A stretch of DNA of 64,000 nt from Cochlodiniinecator piscidefendens. Its GTDB lineage: Bacteria; Pseudomonadota; Alphaproteobacteria; Rhodobacterales; Rhodobacteraceae. Under the pieces are notes generated by a model. The model was given only the letters and a program-made list of their open reading frames with translations. It did not search any database and was not told the origin of the DNA. The stretch's first letter is position 1. Each line of letters begins with the position of its first letter. Positions 30,966-47,220 of this stretch are shown here, piece by piece. Both the position numbers and the translations under genes were made by a program. The stretch covers positions 88,344-152,343 of the forward strand of contig NZ_JAAOIE010000001.1 in assembly GCF_011326755.1 (NCBI RefSeq). The letters are read 5' to 3'.

Positions 30966-33900
30966 TTAATGAAAATCGCGGCTGGGAAAGAGGCGTTTTG
31001 CTTGTTCGCGAGGATGGCGGGCGCTTGATCGTTGAGGGCGGGGGGCATCGTCAGCCTCGGGGCGAGTAACGCCGATGGCATCGTCCATAGGATGGCCCAA
31101 ATCTGTCAGGTGATGAGACATATCCTCGATGTTTTGCGCAATCAGATGTACGACGATGCCTTCGCGTTGCAGATATCCATTCACCCGTAATAATCTGCCA
31201 CCCATCACGATCCGGCGGAATTGCTTATACACCTTAGGCCAGACGACAATATTGGATACGCCTGTTTCATCTTCCAGCGTTAGAAAAATTACACCAGATG
31301 CGGTGCCAGGGCGCTGGCGAGTGATGACAAGACCGCAGACGCTGGTACGGCCCAGAGGTACGTGTTGCAGTTGATCATGTGGTGTCAGGCCGAAGATCAC
31401 AGGGCGCAAAAGTTCCATGGGGTGGGCGCGCAGGGTCAGGCGGGTTGAAACGTAATCCTCAACGACCTCTTCGCCCAGATGCATGGTGGGCAGGCTGATA
31501 GTGGGTTCGTGGATACTTTCGCCGTCAATAGGATCGCTGAACAATGGCAACGGTGTTTGGCTGCGGATTGCTTTCACTCGCCATAGCGCTTCACGCCGCG
31601 TAAGCCCCATGCTTATAAAAGCATCGGCCTCGGCCAAACGTTCTAGCACTGCTGGCGCTACGCCAGAACGCAACCAAACGCTTTCGGGATCTGGATAACC
31701 GTTGCCGCGTGCTGCTTCGATCCAACCGGCATCTTCTTCGCGGAAACCTTTGATTTGGCGAAACCCTAAACGCATGGCTAAAACGCCATCCATGCGGCGT
31801 TCAAGCGCATTATCCCACGCGCTGGCATTGACGCAGATTGGTCGGACTTCGACCTGATGCTCGCGGGCGTCGCGTACGATCTGGGCTGGGGCGTAAAACC
31901 CCATCGGTTGGGAATTCAGCAAAGCACAGGCAAAGATCGCGGGATGATGGCATTTCAGCCAGGCGGAAACATAGGCCAGCATGGCAAAGGCTGCGGCGTG
32001 GCTTTCGGGGAAACCATACTCGCCGAAGCCTTCGATCTGGCTGAAACACTGATTGGCAAAGGCTTCGGTATAGCCACGATCAAGCATGCCATTTACGAAC
32101 CGATCACGGAAGGTGCCAATGGTCCCCATCTTGCGGAAGGTCGCCAGAGATCTGCGCAATTTATCGGCCTCTTCCGGGGTGAAGCCCGCGCCGACCACAG
32201 CGATCTGCATGGCTTGTTCCTGAAATAAGGGTACACCAAGGGTTTTGCCCAGAACATCGCGCAAGGCCTCTGATGGAAATTTGGTCTTTTCGCGCCCTTG
32301 CCGTCGATTAATATAAGGATGCACCATGCCGCCTTGAATTGGGCCGGGGCGTACGATGGCAACCTCAATCACCAGATCATAAAATTTGCGCGGCTCCATG
32401 CGAGGCAAGAAGTTCATTTGCGCCCGGCTTTCGACCTGGAACACACCAATCGCATCGGCCACACACAACATGTCATAGGTCTCAGTATCATCTTGAGGTA
32501 CGGTTGCGATGCTCAAATTCTGGTGTTCATGTTGTGTCAAAAGATCAAAGCTTTTGCGGATACAGGTCAGCATTCCAAGGCTAAGAACATCAACTTTCAG
32601 GATGCCAAGCGCATCGATATCATCTTTGTCCCATTCAATAATCGTACGATCTTCCATGGCGGCGTTTTCAATTGGGCACAGCTCATCTAGGCGTCCTTTT
32701 GTGATGATAAAACCACCGACGTGTTGTGATAAATGACGGGGAAAGCCGATGATTTCGCCGATCAATTTTATCGTTTGGGCAAGGCGACGGTCGTTTAAAT
32801 CTAAGCCCAATTCGCGAATGCGTTCAGGGTCTGCCCCGCCATCCGACATCCCCCAAATCTGACCAGATAATCCGGCGGTGATATCCTGTGATAGACCCAT
32901 AACCTTACCCACTTCGCCAATGGCTGCACGAGACCGGAAATGAATGACCGTCGCACAGAGGCCAGCCCGGTGGCGGCCATATCGCTTATAGATCCATTGG
33001 ATCACTTCTTCGCGGCGCTCATGTTCAAAATCTACATCAATATCCGGTGGTTCCCCCCGGTGTTCAGAGACAAAACGTTCCACCACCATGGTAATCGCTT
33101 CGGGGCTGACGTCGGTGATGCCCAACAGATAACAAATGATCGAATTTGCAGCTGATCCGCGCCCTTGACACAGAATGCCCTGACTGCGCGCGTACTGGAC
33201 AATATCATGCACGGTTAGGAAATAAGCGGGGAATTTGAGCTTAGCGACCAGTTTCAGTTCCTTCTCCAACTGCGCTTTGGCTTTTTCAGTTGCCCCTTGC
33301 GGATAGCGCTTGACGAGTCCCGTGCGCGCCAGACGTTCCAGGCGCACCATGGGGGTTTCACCATCGGCGATCTCATCGGGGTATTCGTAGCTTAGCTCAC
33401 TGAGATCAAAGCCACAGCGCGCAACGATTTCCATTGTGCGTCTGATTGCTGCCGGATGATGGCGAAACAGACGCGCCATATCTGTATGCCCTTTTAGGCG
33501 GCGTTCGGCATTAGGCAAAGCACGGGTGCCTATCTGATCAATGGTGATGTGGTGGCGCATGCAGGTCAGAACATCCGCCAGCTGTTTGCGTTTCCCGTGG
33601 TGCATCAAGATATCGCCGACAGCCACCATCGGTGTCGAACAACGCAAGGCCAGATCGGCGCAGGCTGTAAAGTAGCTCTGATCACTGCCATCATATTGCG
33701 GAGCGGCACCTAGAAAAACATGCCCGGGAAAATGACGTTGAACTGATTGAATATCGTGTGGCGCCGTTTTTAGATCGCGGGGCAATGCAATCAGGATTAT
33801 CCCAATGCCATGCTCCATCATATCCTTTAGATCAAGATGACACTCTCCTTTGGGGGCACGCCGTTTCCCTAAAGTCAGAAGCCGTGTCAGGCGCTGATAG

Positions 33901-34178
33901 GCTGCACGATTTGTTGGCAGAGCCAGCCATTCGACATTGCTGTTACGTAACACCAGACGGCAACCCGTGATTAATTTGGGTAGGGCTGCGTCGGGGGTCT
34001 CTTCTTTTAGGACTCTTAGCGCCGAATAGGCTCTCACGACACCGGCCAGAGAATTGCGGTCTGTGATTGCAATTGCACCCAGGCCCAGACTTGCAGCACG
34101 GGTGATCAGTTCTTCCGGGTGGGAGGCTCCGGTCAGAAACGTAAAATTACTTGTGGCGCAGAGTTCAGCATAGGTCAT
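30966..34178 (-). CDS. dnaE2: Error-prone DNA polymerase DnaE2 (ImuC)
   Basis: Translesion C-family polymerase of the SOS mutasome. 1070 aa from ATG 34178 (MTYAELCATSNFTFLTGASH); the start is fixed by its ATGA overlap with imuB. An N-terminal PHP domain (LGLGAIAITDRNSLAGVVRA) is followed by polymerase blocks GRGSAANSIICYLLG, PPDIDVDFEHERREEVIQWI, and GYGFPESH-like GEYGFPESHAAAFAMLAYV. A C-terminal OB-fold part holds TSVCGLVITRQRPGTASGV. It works with ImuB (clamp adaptor) and ImuA, the two genes upstream. Confidence 0.96.
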   Translation of the reverse strand: MTYAELCATSNFTFLTGASHPEELITRAASLGLGAIAITDRNSLAGVVRAYSALRVLKEETPDAALPKLITGCRLVLRNSNVEWLALPTNRAAYQRLTRLLTLGKRRAPKGECHLDLKDMMEHGIGIILIALPRDLKTAPHDIQSVQRHFPGHVFLGAAPQYDGSDQSYFTACADLALRCSTPMVAVGDILMHHGKRKQLADVLTCMRHHITIDQIGTRALPNAERRLKGHTDMARLFRHHPAAIRRTMEIVARCGFDLSELSYEYPDEIADGETPMVRLERLARTGLVKRYPQGATEKAKAQLEKELKLVAKLKFPAYFLTVHDIVQYARSQGILCQGRGSAANSIICYLLGITDVSPEAITMVVERFVSEHRGEPPDIDVDFEHERREEVIQWIYKRYGRHRAGLCATVIHFRSRAAIGEVGKVMGLSQDITAGLSGQIWGMSDGGADPERIRELGLDLNDRRLAQTIKLIGEIIGFPRHLSQHVGGFIITKGRLDELCPIENAAMEDRTIIEWDKDDIDALGILKVDVLSLGMLTCIRKSFDLLTQHEHQNLSIATVPQDDTETYDMLCVADAIGVFQVESRAQMNFLPRMEPRKFYDLVIEVAIVRPGPIQGGMVHPYINRRQGREKTKFPSEALRDVLGKTLGVPLFQEQAMQIAVVGAGFTPEEADKLRRSLATFRKMGTIGTFRDRFVNGMLDRGYTEAFANQCFSQIEGFGEYGFPESHAAAFAMLAYVSAWLKCHHPAIFACALLNSQPMGFYAPAQIVRDAREHQVEVRPICVNASAWDNALERRMDGVLAMRLGFRQIKGFREEDAGWIEAARGNGYPDPESVWLRSGVAPAVLERLAEADAFISMGLTRREALWRVKAIRSQTPLPLFSDPIDGESIHEPTISLPTMHLGEEVVEDYVSTRLTLRAHPMELLRPVIFGLTPHDQLQHVPLGRTSVCGLVITRQRPGTASGVIFLTLEDETGVSNIVVWPKVYKQFRRIVMGGRLLRVNGYLQREGIVVHLIAQNIEDMSHHLTDLGHPMDDAIGVTRPEADDAPRPQRSSARHPREQAKRLFPSRDFH

Positions 34179-35662
34179 GCAAACTCTCCTTGCACGAACC
34201 AGGCCGGATTTTGCGGCGTGAAAAACAGCCAGAGCCTGCGTCCCTGTCGTGTTTCGACCCGCCAATAATCGCGCACCCCTGAACGCCAGTATTCATCTGC
34301 CATCCACCATTCCGGCGCAATACGTTCTGGGCCATGTCTGCGTCCGATGGTTAAAGCCATACGCCGCCAGTAAAAATGATCAGGTGGTTGTGGTGTATGG
34401 CCCGCAATGGCTTCTGGTGGAAATAGATGAAGTGGGCGAGGTCGTGACATGGTCCATGCGTCATCCGCCTTAGAAAATGCTGCCGGGGCAATAATAAAAC
34501 TGCGTTCAGGAATATGGCTGTCAGCGGGCAGAAAACGTTGGATGCTTTCTAAGCCGATCCGCGCCCCCAATCGTGTGATCAGATCATCAAGCTGATCTTT
34601 CCCGCTGTTTGAAACATGGCTGATTTGTTGTACGGGCAGCGTTTCCACCTGAGTTGCCATTAGCCGTAATTGATCAATGCCAAACCCTGCATCGACATCA
34701 TCCACACCGCGTTGAAACAGCGGCAAAATACGCGCAGAGTCATGTAATGCGCGAGCCAAGCGCAGCTCAACCTCCTGCGCTTCACGATCAACGCGGCGCA
34801 GGGTCAACACTAACACGCGCGCCCCAATACCGTCTGCAGCCAGCTTATGACAGAGCTGGGACAACAGGCGTTCGACCCCGGCCATGACATCGGCACAGAG
34901 ACCAATTGGCTCTGGCAATGTCATACGCACAGCGTAATGGGGGGGATCTTTCAATGGCGTGATACTTTCAGGTTGAACCCCAAGAACCTGATCCAATCGC
35001 AATAGTAAATTTGTACCAAAACGCCGGGCGAGAGGCCCGCGTTCCGTAGCGATGAGATCACCGATTGATCGAAGGCCAAGCCGCTGTAGTGCTACATCTG
35101 TTTTGTGGTCAATTCGCAAAGCGGCGACAGGCAAAACCGCAAGGGTGGCCTGCATGTCATCGGGCACGGGGGCATCACTATAATGTGCCAACGCCCAAGC
35201 TGCTCCGCGGCTGGTTCCTACCCCGAAACACGCAGTAATGCCTGCATGCGCCAAGCGTTGCTGCATATCCGAAATCATGGTGGCTTCATTGCCAAAGAGA
35301 TGGGTGGAACCCGTGGCATCAAGAGTCAGCCCGTCATTTCCTTCCAGTCCGATCCAAGGAGAATATCGGTTTGCCCATCGCCGCAGTGTCCGCAAAAAAT
35401 GCTGATCTGCGTGCGGATCAGCAGGCATGCTGTGTAGGCTTGGGCAAAAGGCACAGGCATCTGAAAACGGCATACCTCGGTACAAACCCTGTTGTTCAGC
35501 GGCTTTGTTCAGGCAATAAATTCGATTGGCGTTGTTTTCCTTTAGAGTCAGGACAAAAGGCCCATCTATTGGACGTGCCCGCAGAATCCGGTCACTTGCC
35601 AGGCGGGGAAACCACAGCGAGACGATCTGCCGGGTTGGCTTGATTTGGGTTCCAACAAACAT
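34175..35662 (-). CDS. imuB: Y-family-like mutasome protein ImuB
   Basis: Non-catalytic Y-family relative that bridges ImuA, DnaE2 and the sliding clamp. 495 aa from ATG 35662 (MFVGTQIKPTRQIVSLWFPR). QGLYRGMPFSDACAFCPSL and LGLRSIGDLIATERGPLARR are Y-family-like; catalytic acidic residues of true Pol IV are not evident. RPLHLFPPEA near residue 415 resembles the clamp-binding motif usual in ImuB. It overlaps imuA by 71 nt and dnaE2 by four, so the three are translated as one unit. Confidence 0.93.
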   Translation of the reverse strand: MFVGTQIKPTRQIVSLWFPRLASDRILRARPIDGPFVLTLKENNANRIYCLNKAAEQQGLYRGMPFSDACAFCPSLHSMPADPHADQHFLRTLRRWANRYSPWIGLEGNDGLTLDATGSTHLFGNEATMISDMQQRLAHAGITACFGVGTSRGAAWALAHYSDAPVPDDMQATLAVLPVAALRIDHKTDVALQRLGLRSIGDLIATERGPLARRFGTNLLLRLDQVLGVQPESITPLKDPPHYAVRMTLPEPIGLCADVMAGVERLLSQLCHKLAADGIGARVLVLTLRRVDREAQEVELRLARALHDSARILPLFQRGVDDVDAGFGIDQLRLMATQVETLPVQQISHVSNSGKDQLDDLITRLGARIGLESIQRFLPADSHIPERSFIIAPAAFSKADDAWTMSRPRPLHLFPPEAIAGHTPQPPDHFYWRRMALTIGRRHGPERIAPEWWMADEYWRSGVRDYWRVETRQGRRLWLFFTPQNPAWFVQGEFA

Positions 35663-36164
35663 ACCAATCACATAATGTTCCTGATTTGTTCTTAATAAGT
35701 GACCACCGCATGAGAGTCGAGTCAGACCTTTCGGAATCAAACACCGGATTGCACCGCCAGCGGGTCTCAGCTGCGTTGCTGCCCATTCCGTCAGGAATGA
35801 CGCAAAGCCCAGTTGTACCACCCGTCTTTGCCGCCAATTGCAATCGTCGCCCGGCTGTCAGATCAAGCGGTTGATCAAGCTCAACAATTACCGAGGGGAC
35901 ACTGCCATCGCGCAAGGCTTCCTCCATCATAGCCAAGCCTTCCATCTGATCTTTGACCTGAGCCAGTAAGATGCGAGAAGGGCTGCAAAACGCAGACAAT
36001 CCAGCCGGATTTAGGCGATCCGAACGCCACGCCTGACGTATCCAAAGCGTGTATTCCGAGCTTTGCCCTGCAACAATCGCACAAAAATTCAACGCCGCAT
36101 TACCACAAATTTCGTGAACACGGGCCTTGCATAGAGGGAAATGAAAAGTGAGATCAGGTAACAT
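35592..36164 (-). CDS. imuA: Mutasome protein ImuA (RecA-like, degenerate)
   Basis: 190 aa, shorter than some ImuA proteins (~240). RILLAQVKDQMEGLAMMEEA, LRDGSVPSVIVELDQPLDLT and AGRRLQLAAKTGGTTGLCVI are the RecA-like core of the ImuA family, and RWRCNP...LMRWSLIKNKSGTLCDW is the tail typical of alphaproteobacterial members. ATG 36164 follows an in-frame GTG (36170); AGGG stands 8 nt before the ATG. First gene of the SOS cassette. Only a half-matching LexA motif is seen upstream (see rejected items). Confidence 0.88.
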   Translation of the reverse strand: MLPDLTFHFPLCKARVHEICGNAALNFCAIVAGQSSEYTLWIRQAWRSDRLNPAGLSAFCSPSRILLAQVKDQMEGLAMMEEALRDGSVPSVIVELDQPLDLTAGRRLQLAAKTGGTTGLCVIPDGMGSNAAETRWRCNPVFDSERSDSTLMRWSLIKNKSGTLCDWYVCWNPNQANPADRLAVVSPPGK

Positions 36165-36474
36165 AAACACACCCTAAAGGAACGCGTTCCCCATTTCAAT
36201 TTGGTGTAGCGCGGTCTTTTTAAGCTTTCACAAAATATTCAATCGCCGCGCTAAGGTCGTATATGGGCACCCTGCGTTTTCATCCAATGACTATTTTGGG
36301 CAGTGGACGGTTACCATCGAAAATTTACACGGGCGCGCAACCGGTTTGGGCCTGTCTTGCATTCATGCGGCGTTGCTGAGAAAGTCTGTTAAGAAAAACA
36401 TGTAGTATCAACTTGAATTAATTACAGCCGAGAAATGCTTTCTTAAGTTTAACTTTATTGGAAAATACAATCGT
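36165..36474. other. Divergent intergenic region between imuA and the amine oxidase gene
   Basis: Contains a 12-bp palindrome GGAACGCGTTCC at 36179-36190 close to the imuA start and an A/T-rich leader before 36475. No gene or RNA recognised. Confidence 0.5.
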
Positions 36475-37812
36475 ATGACTCTGACACGGCGCAACACGTT
36501 AAAAATGGGCATCGCTGCTTTACTTGCAAATGTCGCAAGTAAAACCTCGGCCCAAGACATGACCGGAACAAAGGTCGTTGTGGTGGGGGCAGGGATTGCA
36601 GGGCTGGCTGCCGCAAAACAGTTACAATTGCAGGGGGCAGAGGTTCTTGTGATGGAGGCTGGCGACTATATCGGTGGGCGCATTCGCACGGATATGAGTT
36701 TAGGCGCACCCTTTGAATATGGCGCAGGATGGATACACGGACCAAGCGGAGAAAATCCAATTCAGGACCTCGCGCAGCGGGTCGATGCAAACACCTTTGT
36801 CACCGACGATGACAGCCTTGAGGTTTTTGATATACACGGGGAGCCGCTTACAAATGAAGATTACGAACGTCTTGATGACATGTATGTCAGCTTGCAGCGA
36901 AAGCTTTATTCACGTGTAGGTCGTAGGGACACACGTAGTATTCATGAGGTTATCGAAGACATTGAACCGGATGTATTGAATGATCCCATGGGGCGTTGGA
37001 TGTTATCCGCGTTTACAGAATTTGATATCGGGGCAGGGATCGAAGATATCTCTGCTGCGAACGCTTTTGCGGATACGGCCTTTGACGGCGAAGACGTAAT
37101 CTTAACCGGAGGGTATGATACCATCTTAGCGCCCCTCATTGATGGGCTTGATATTCGATTGAACAGTGCTGTCTCACAAATTTCGTATGGCGAAGATGGT
37201 GTTGAAGTGGATGGCATTCATGCAGATTACGTGATTTGCGCTGTGCCGTTGGGGGTATTAAAGGCGGGAAAAATTGACTTCATTCCAGCGCTGCCGCAAA
37301 CCACTCAGAGCGCGATCGATGAGATCGGCTTTGGCACAGTTACAAAAATCGCCCTAAAGTTCGACAGGCCATTTTGGAATGCGGAAACTCAATATTTTGG
37401 AATTATGACCGAACCTAAAGGGCGTTGGAATTATTGGTTGAATTACCTCACATTTAGCAATGAAAATATCCTCTTAGGGCTTTCATTTGGTCAATACGCA
37501 CCTATCGCAGATCGCATGACCCAAGATGAGATGACTGAAGATGCGATTGAGGTACTTCGATCCGTTTGGGGGGATGCTGTCGGTACGCCTCAGACAGTGT
37601 TAACGACCCATTGGGCTGAAGATCCAAATTTCAAAGGAGCCTATTCTTACCCACAAGTCGGAGGCTCAATTGCTCAATACGATAGCTTTGGGGAGCCAAT
37701 TGCGGATCGCTTGTTAATGGTTGGTGAACATACAATTTTTGACTATCACAGTACCACGCATGGTGCCCTAATGTCTGGTCGTAGAGCAGCCGTGGCCATT
37801 TCTGAGCTGTAG
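36475..37812 (+). CDS. Flavin monoamine/polyamine oxidase family protein
   Basis: 445-aa FAD enzyme that oxidises an amine, substrate unknown. The N-terminus MTLTRRNTLKMGIAALLANV looks like a twin-Arg export signal, so it may act in the periplasm. VVVVGAGIAGLAAAKQLQLQ is the dinucleotide fold, EAGDYIGGRIRTD the second FAD block, and FEYGAGWIHGP follows. GAYSYPQVGGS and LLMVGEHTIFDYHSTTHGAL close the FAD site. Family members include lysine-, tryptophan- and spermidine-oxidising enzymes. It stands alone. Confidence 0.9.
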   Translation: MTLTRRNTLKMGIAALLANVASKTSAQDMTGTKVVVVGAGIAGLAAAKQLQLQGAEVLVMEAGDYIGGRIRTDMSLGAPFEYGAGWIHGPSGENPIQDLAQRVDANTFVTDDDSLEVFDIHGEPLTNEDYERLDDMYVSLQRKLYSRVGRRDTRSIHEVIEDIEPDVLNDPMGRWMLSAFTEFDIGAGIEDISAANAFADTAFDGEDVILTGGYDTILAPLIDGLDIRLNSAVSQISYGEDGVEVDGIHADYVICAVPLGVLKAGKIDFIPALPQTTQSAIDEIGFGTVTKIALKFDRPFWNAETQYFGIMTEPKGRWNYWLNYLTFSNENILLGLSFGQYAPIADRMTQDEMTEDAIEVLRSVWGDAVGTPQTVLTTHWAEDPNFKGAYSYPQVGGSIAQYDSFGEPIADRLLMVGEHTIFDYHSTTHGALMSGRRAAVAISEL

Positions 37813-42184: not shown

Positions 42185-46401
<4,217 letters not shown>

Positions 46402-46409
46402 GTATTTTT

Positions 46410-46454
46410 GTTCTCATAAGTTCACAAATGTTCTTAAAAAGTTCTTTACAGAAC
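46410..46454. promoter_or_regulatory. Phased GTTC repeats with one exact LexA-type box
   Basis: GTTC occurs at 46410, 46420, 46430 and 46441, and its complement GAAC at 46451. The pair 46430/46441 is GTTC-N7-GTTC, the LexA box consensus of alphaproteobacteria; the others have N6 spacing. A further GAAC lies at 46468. The array stands between recG and the 40-aa membrane gene at 46507. Confidence 0.7.
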
Positions 46455-46506
46455 GTTGGGAATTTGAGAACAAATAGGCAACAAACATGAGAGTAGGAGC
46501 CAACAC

Positions 46507-46629
46507 ATGCTGAAAGATGTTAAAACCGTTGCCGCCCGTTCCGCTGGAACACTGGTACAGGATGCTGTTGGTCTCTGCGCTTTGATTGTTATGCTCGTAG
46601 CGGGCCTTTACCTACCGGGGTCGCTTTGA
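46507..46629 (+). CDS. Small single-TM protein, 40 aa, downstream of LexA-like sites
   Basis: ATG 46507 with GAGAGTAGGAG before it. The product reads MLKDVKTVAARSAGTLVQDA followed by a membrane helix (LCALIVMLVAGLYLPG) and a two-residue tail. I recall similar tiny proteins near this locus in relatives but know no function. The upstream GTTC array suggests DNA-damage control. In Caulobacter the 29-aa membrane protein SidA is an SOS-induced division inhibitor, so a comparable role is a testable guess, not a claim. Confidence 0.65.
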   Translation: MLKDVKTVAARSAGTLVQDAVGLCALIVMLVAGLYLPGSL

Positions 46630-46745
46630 ACACTGCCTGCGTCTATCCGCGGTTGATCGCATTCATTCCCTAAACCATGCGTTGGCGATATTGCCTCTTT
46701 CGCCACGGGCCTCGCCCGAAAACCCGATACACAGACGTTACTTTG

Positions 46746-46781
46746 CCGCCGCTTTCCCTCAAGGATCGCGGCGGTTTTTTT
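46746..46781 (+). terminator. Intrinsic terminator after the 40-aa gene
   Basis: CCGCCGC (46746-46752) pairs with GCGGCGG (46768-46774), followed directly by a T-run. It serves the plus-strand small gene; the convergent NifU-like gene ends at 46780 within the T-run. Confidence 0.85.
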
Positions 46782-47220
46782 ATTGATTTTCTATTTGTTC
46801 AGTCGCTTCTAAAGAGGCCTCGAGCGCGAGTAAAATCGATGCATGACGATTTTTGAATTCTCGGGCGGGTTCTAAGACCTTCAGGCCATCAAATGGGGTG
46901 CTTGGGGCAGGGCCATCTGATTTCAACATATCGCGTAATTGGTCACGTGCGGTTTTTATCTGCGCCGCAGATGTACCGACAATATTTGCCCCGACCACTG
47001 ATGCCGCAGCCTGCCCAAGCGCGCAAGCTTTGACATCCTGCGCAAATGCGCTGACATGGCCATCACTCAAATTCAGATCAACCGTCACGGTGGATCCACA
47101 CAAAGGCGCACGTTTTTTTACACTTGCCTGAGGTGTCTCTAAACGTTCCGTCATTGGTATATCTGCTGCAAGCGCCAAAATACGGGTGGAATAAAGGTTC
47201 ATGAGGTCGCTGTCGGCCAT
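46780..47220 (-). CDS. NifU/IscU-N-type iron-sulfur scaffold family protein
   Basis: 146 aa from ATG 47220 ([20 protein letters not shown]); the ORF extends upstream but into the hisI promoter. [20 protein letters not shown] and [20 protein letters not shown] carry two of the scaffold Cys. Later [20 protein letters not shown] lacks a clear third Cys, so cluster binding may be partial. It may help assemble Fe-S clusters, but the missing ligand leaves its role open. Divergent from hisI. Confidence 0.8.

Follow-up and report, generated by a model that had tools for sequence, protein, structure and literature searches.

A small membrane peptide gene beside recG in Rhodobacteraceae and its predicted LexA control

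In the window, that is, the whole 64-kb stretch of DNA analysed here, an array of GTTC units is placed between the recG stop codon (46401) and a small open reading frame (ORF, 46507-46629). The question raised by this locus is whether the array is a LexA operator and what a peptide of 40 residues might do in the SOS response. An initial annotation had described four GTTC units at 10-11-bp steps, one exact GTTC-N7-GTTC pair and a well-signalled 40-codon ORF adjoining recG, and all three are found again: the units start at 46410, 46420, 46430 and 46441 (steps of 10, 10 and 11), the exact pair covers 46430-46444 and an AGGAG precedes the ORF. From the window by itself the meaning of the array could not be decided, since the pair is expected about twice in it (1.96) and was found twice; in the same genome, GTTC-N7-GTTC occurs 84 times vs 108 for the reversed control pattern, with no genome-wide enrichment. 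This chance level of the pair is what speaks for a small ORF that arose at random next to GTTC repeats with no link to it, an explanation already refuted by the conservation of both peptide and promoter across genera and to which we give practically no weight. The features of the locus are as follows.

44311..46401, plus strand: recG (helicase), upstream neighbour; Pfam RecG_wedge, DEAD, Helicase_C and RecG_dom3_C
46410..46413, plus strand: outermost GTTC, unconserved in the profile over 100 loci
46420..46423, plus strand: additional conserved GTTC, N6 ahead of box 1 (88/104 loci)
46428..46446, plus strand: predicted LexA box 1, core GTTC-N7-GTTC at 46430-46444, matrix score 17.5; abuts the putative -35
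46445..46450, plus strand: putative -35, TTTACA; conserved at 1.4-2.0 bits, final base 0.8 (100 loci)
46465..46473, plus strand: putative extended -10 region TGAGAACAA; conserved, 17 bp past TTTACA, weak match to TATAAT
46466..46484, minus strand: predicted LexA box 2, GAAC-N7-CAAC on the plus strand, score 15.9; one core mismatch, over the putative -10/+1
46495..46499, plus strand: Shine-Dalgarno AGGAG, seen in the sequence
46507..46629, plus strand: gene of the 40-aa peptide, predicted single-TM; profile match, codon-position identity and predicted helix
46745..46782, plus strand: intrinsic terminator, hairpin and U-run; -20.7 kcal/mol, z -5.0, about 115 nt past the peptide stop

We infer the -35 (TTTACA) and -10 assignments; a search for a sigma-70 consensus promoter ahead of the peptide gene found none, and the -10 matches sigma-70 poorly. 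The initial annotation had also given the gene a terminator of its own. A hairpin with U-run is present at 46745-46782, but it may be common to the peptide gene and a convergent ORF on the opposite strand, because the latter ends at 46780. A simple terminator scan reported no terminator downstream of the peptide gene, a miss that we think is due to its loop limit.

Conservation of the peptide and of its promoter

A single-sequence search found relatives of the peptide in 107 of 149 same-family genomes, and a 30-row profile (A1) found it in 255 of 295, every genome being from another genus (226 of 260 among the high-quality genomes alone). The draw at order level gave 216 of 244 genomes and 95 of 101 genera; because all rows listed belong to the same family, it adds species rather than families. 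In the class draw, 6 of 289 genomes matched at E 0.01, of which four were strong matches from the same family, while the kinship of 263 non-matching genomes is not given and diverged members could escape there. The two class-draw matches from other families (E 0.003 and 0.010) sit within a 290-aa and a 526-aa frame and were taken as chance. In all 30 loci checked recG is immediately upstream of the peptide gene, and downstream of it a convergent ORF is present in 21 and hisI in 19. The significance of the gene lies in this spread through the family combined with the lack of any Pfam match, none of the 30 members of A1 hitting a family at E 0.1. The window peptide, the only one compared with NCBIfam, gave one match at E 0.075, far under the family cut-off, and the PADLOC profiles matched 1 of the 30 members (E 0.053). 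A mobile or phage origin was considered and rejected, with no occurrence of the promoter pattern in viral_contigs and none of the peptide in plasmids.

The promoter was compared in 104 loci from 104 genomes, selected on the score of the peptide without regard to the motif. They comprise 30 loci from the single-sequence search, 14 from the profile search and 60 fetched additionally; 13 of the 27 new profile-search loci were omitted as repeats of genomes already included, the order-draw loci were not used, and profile matches without listed coordinates were left out, so that weak members are under-sampled. Within 220 bp upstream of the peptide, GTTC-N7-GTTC is present in 101 of the 104 loci, all 30 first loci included, and in 0 of 220 control windows, which lie further upstream and mostly inside recG. 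GTTC-N6-GTTC-N7-GTTC is found in 88 loci. GAAC-N7-[GC]AAC, which corresponds to box 2, is found in 92 (control windows 0/440); there the exact GAAC-N7-GAAC occurs in 6 of 104 loci, most genomes having one core mismatch. Over 100 loci, the profile reads tGTTC.CaaATGTTCT.AaAAAGTTCTTTACa, about 13 weakly conserved bases, then aTGAGAACAAAg.ggCAACAaa, and carries about 84 bits over 90 positions. The inner units of the four-unit array that had been proposed are thus conserved, but the outermost one at 46410 is not (positions -20 to -17, 0.1-0.6 bits). GTTC-N6-GTTC-N7-GTTCTTTAC, that is the triple GTTC with TTTAC, is present as a single copy in 22 of 41 genomes; its reversed control was not found. 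Starting from the promoter, a scan of genome_contigs with 21 fixed bases gave at least 118 stretches; among the matches listed, 117 of 118 are followed by the peptide within 320 bp and the remaining locus ends 57 nt past the motif.

Among the same listed matches, 116 of 118 promoter-first loci yield a peptide of 36-48 codons; the residue counts given here use the 75 relatives of exactly 40 aa and omit 41 peptides of other lengths. Identity at codon positions 1, 2 and 3 is 0.54, 0.69 and 0.40 in these 75 relatives, a pattern that fits a protein under selection. D19, G22, L34 and P37 are found in 75, 75, 74 and 74 of the 75. The 40-aa peptide has a 19-residue hydropathy maximum of 2.2, and its single-sequence AlphaFold2 model is one helix over residues 2-35 (mean pLDDT 82). 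The peptide is therefore predicted to be a very small single-pass membrane protein.

TisB of E. coli is an SOS-regulated single-TM membrane toxin paired with an antisense RNA. A similar role could be imagined here, in which an SOS-induced toxin of the TisB/DinQ type would perturb the membrane and slow metabolism without docking on the divisome, and size, single TM and SOS control would all fit. Against this role, the invariant D19 and G22 and the near-invariant L34 and P37 look like docking residues in the 75 relatives listed, and the net charge of the peptides is mostly -1 to +1 in the listed promoter-first loci. The leader between TTTAC and the start codon, 49-111 nt with a median of 60 among the matches listed, is unconserved outside the boxes and offers little space for an antitoxin of the antisense-RNA kind, and no Rfam family reached threshold at the locus. 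An RNA element was rejected, the Rfam search giving only two sub-threshold matches, one per strand, to the microRNA family mir-4477. Taken together, we regard the toxin as quite improbable.

Predicted LexA boxes and the genomes that seem to have lost lexA

As a yardstick, GAAC-N7-GAAC stands before lexA in 27 of 27 same-family loci and before recA in 24 of 30 (25 once the short flank of locus L121 is counted); a partial lexA locus (L110) and the recA of genome G014, which has no locus, are omitted. The LexA matrix was built from these lexA/recA boxes, 61 in all, with training scores of 13.0-26.1. Boxes 1 and 2 of the window score within this range, as do their medians across loci (18.9 and 15.6). 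Sites scoring at least 13 are present in 102 of 104 upstream regions of the peptide vs 1 of 264 control windows. The refuting outcome named by the initial annotation, a conserved peptide without a conserved array, thus did not occur. The SOS-type promoter claimed by the initial annotation is strongly supported at the sequence level by this matrix, by conservation, by the promoter-first scan and by the lexA-loss comparison described below. Box 2, in the opposite orientation, is a second LexA-like box that had been overlooked; sites of at least 10 are found on both strands in 98 of 104 loci, spaced 38 bp apart in 83. The two loci without a site of at least 13 are those of G071, which retains GTTC-N7-GTTC with an unusual flank, and G157, which keeps the peptide and has no detectable lexA gene and no LexA box at recA. 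We consider it very probable that the gene is under LexA control, and the two boxes make this directly testable.

Other promoters of this genome and family also carry more than one LexA-like site. The recA promoter of the same genome (L136) has a second plus-strand site, scoring 17.5, at a distance of 27 bp from the main one (21.8), a two-box layout that resembles that of the peptide promoter. Overlapping GAAC-N7-GAAC-N7-GAAC with 11-bp steps is seen in 10 of 27 lexA loci (L083-L109), including that of the same genome (L084).

Five sites of at least 13 occur in the 64-kb window: boxes 1 and 2, one ahead of the probable start of imuB and two within ORFs, which we take to resemble cdsA and gyrA. 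The third belongs to an imuA-imuB-dnaE2-like SOS mutagenesis operon (30966-36170, minus strand) about 10 kb from the peptide gene. In this operon a 548-aa ORF has IMS and IMS_C domains (Pfam), a 1099-aa ORF is presumably dnaE2-like and a 192-aa ORF, for which Pfam gave no match, is taken to be imuA-like by its sequence. The site (18.7, at 35675-35693) falls within the imuA-like ORF, a short way ahead of where imuB probably starts (about 35662), while upstream of the imuA-like ORF (36101-36475) the best site scores just 3.2.

The array might instead serve as operator for a dedicated regulator distinct from LexA, which would read GTTC at N6 and N7 spacing together with the A-tract. Such a regulator would explain why conservation around the boxes exceeds that of a LexA box, why a genome has a single copy of the full pattern, ahead of the peptide, and why the N6 pair 46420/46430 scores no more than 1.0 as a LexA box. 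Moreover, the base that precedes the second GTTC is A in the consensus of box 1, whereas lexA and recA boxes have T there at 0.78 and 0.96; box 1 fits the published Caulobacter consensus (T/A)TGTTC-N6-TGTTC save for this A replacing the second T (PMC13384398). On the other hand, boxes 1 and 2 fall within the lexA/recA score range in most loci, diverged relatives show other spacers and the usual T, and no LexA-quality box is left in three genomes that lack the recA box and seem to have lost lexA. A dedicated regulator is thus very improbable. LexA control remains our reading, and a second factor may bind around the boxes, since the conservation there is higher than a LexA box accounts for.

Of the 295 genomes, 13 gave no lexA match at E 1e-10; the search for recA succeeded in 11 of these, G069 and G159 being the two others. 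In G008, G029, G157 and G167 recA has no good LexA box (best scores -1.6, 1.7, 7.7 and 5.7), and because the recA box is also absent, lexA is probably truly gone there. These are four genomes of one family that seemingly lost lexA and the recA operator together. The box at the peptide locus is absent in all three that could be evaluated (G008, G157 and G167); G029 has no readable recG locus, and a match regarded as a relic of the peptide in it (E 0.076) was rejected, as no recG lies beside it. For the other nine lexA-negative genomes an assembly gap may hide lexA. Eight of them have the box (G028, G033, G069, G147, G158, G159, G160 and G196), and it is absent in G195, which keeps its recA box. 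The comparison of 0/3 with 8/9 gives a Fisher p of 0.018, for small groups that were defined with the results in view. In G157 the peptide persists without any operator, in a frame that extends beyond position 40. G028, with an intact array and no lexA found, was considered as evidence against LexA; it decides nothing, because its recA box has one core mismatch (score 11.4) and the genome is 86% complete.

Of 28 profile-negative genomes, 24 have a full recG (G014, G029, G059 and G095 were dropped). Reading behind recG showed that the peptide is not simply absent there: 16 of the 24 have LexA-type boxes (best score at least 15.7) and a small membrane ORF, 15 recognised by rule and G090 by eye. 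D/E-x-x-G/A/C stands at the membrane border in 15 of these 16 diverged ORFs, G090 lacking the motif, and it is their boxes that differ in the spacers and show the usual T ahead of the second GTTC (for example G033, G101, G365 and G428). Behind recG, neither box nor such an ORF was found in the remaining eight (G008, G017, G054, G056, G109, G167, G195 and G302); an ORF of G302 that passes the crude rule is unlike the family and was discounted. As lexA is present in G017, G054, G056 and G109, its loss does not explain the missing locus in these four. Since 16 of 24 loci retain boxes and ORF, the operator and the seat behind recG are often still in place where the protein sequence is no longer recognised. 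This suggests that the peptide evolves fast while its position within the SOS response stays constant. Thus, a small gene can be traced by its operator and neighbour once its protein sequence is too diverged for detection.

A possible brake on division

The reading that we prefer, at a rough probability of 0.52 for the whole, is that of an SOS-induced single-pass inner-membrane peptide with two-box LexA control that pauses division through the septal complex. In the undamaged cell LexA would sit on both boxes, abutting the -35 and over the -10/+1, and keep the gene off. RecA-triggered cleavage of LexA would free both boxes and allow a short mRNA to be made. The peptide would then insert in the membrane N-in/C-out, with K6 and R11 of its N-terminal part inside and a TM of about residues 20-37, placing D19-x-x-G22 at the border on the inner side of the membrane and L34-x-L-P37 at the outer end. 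The conservation of D19, G22, L34 and P37 suggests docking to a specific partner, so that the TM might dock on a membrane protein, the likeliest being the septal wall-synthesis complex FtsW/FtsI/FtsN, and constriction would pause during repair. This complex is put first because known SOS-induced bitopic peptides elsewhere act there and because the Caulobacter lexA mutant filaments through SidA (PMC12700426). Given LexA control, division inhibition in the manner of SidA is, by analogy, slightly the better bet for the function.

The same sequence data would suit any intramembrane partner, and the peptide could be an SOS-induced regulator of another membrane protein, such as a protease, a transporter or the DNA-uptake or gene-transfer-agent (GTA) machinery. 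Its retention in G157 after box loss would agree with this, as would in silico LexA sites in Dinoroseobacter that precede recombination, GTA, flagellar and pilus genes (PMC6473078). The neighbours described above (recG, convergent ORF, hisI) offer no linked partner gene, and among SOS-induced inhibitors the small membrane proteins that PMC13396833 reviews hit late division steps; we therefore hold another target to be unlikely, if somewhat less so than a toxin. The septal brake could be extended, more tentatively and with some doubt on our part, to a family-wide SOS checkpoint, in which a fast-drifting intramembrane division brake with a fixed recG seat and LexA boxes would replace SulA/SidA in Rhodobacteraceae and, in at least one lineage that abandoned LexA control (G157), would have been retained for a second role.

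Rhodobacteraceae are among the common marine bacteria, and we know of no mechanism for SOS division arrest in alphaproteobacteria outside Caulobacter. If the brake is real, the peptide would offer a 40-residue handle on septal wall synthesis. Overall, what the initial annotation had observed holds and is stronger than was visible from the window alone, and its interpretation, a counterpart of SidA, is partly supported.

Comparison with known systems

Among the titles and abstract openings covered by full-text searches of the literature, none describes such a gene. The peptide is placed as a candidate among the SOS-induced small membrane peptides and is not classed as SidA. SidA, a 29-aa inner-membrane protein, is the main SOS division inhibitor of Caulobacter and interacts with FtsW (PMC4211646). 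The two share an alphaproteobacterial host, the GTTC-N7-GTTC LexA consensus and a tiny single-TM peptide (PMC4211646, PMC12700426). The present peptide differs from SidA, by description and not by sequence, in its 40 aa, its other order and its pair of boxes, usually at a distance of 38 bp; in Caulobacter, by contrast, a single LexA box is the rule in about 97% of the SOS promoters (PMC12700426). DidA is another small membrane protein of Caulobacter that is damage-induced and inhibits the FtsW/I/N complex; it is SOS-independent and driven by DriD (PMC4211646), while the peptide gene has predicted LexA boxes instead.

TisB and DinQ resemble the peptide as SOS-regulated (here predicted) single-TM peptides; they are toxins paired with antisense RNAs, a kind of partner of which the Rfam search and the short leader gave no sign at the peptide locus. 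DinQ is the toxic, SOS-regulated example from E. coli for which antisense RNAs are described in PMC3567139. YneA, ChiZ and SosA of Gram-positive bacteria are likewise SOS-induced, as is predicted here, and have one TM helix; YneA and ChiZ carry an outer LysM domain and SosA an extended helix, whereas the present peptide appears to end at the membrane. YneA binds TM7 of FtsW, and low-confidence models put ChiZ, SosA and SidA there too (PMC13396833).
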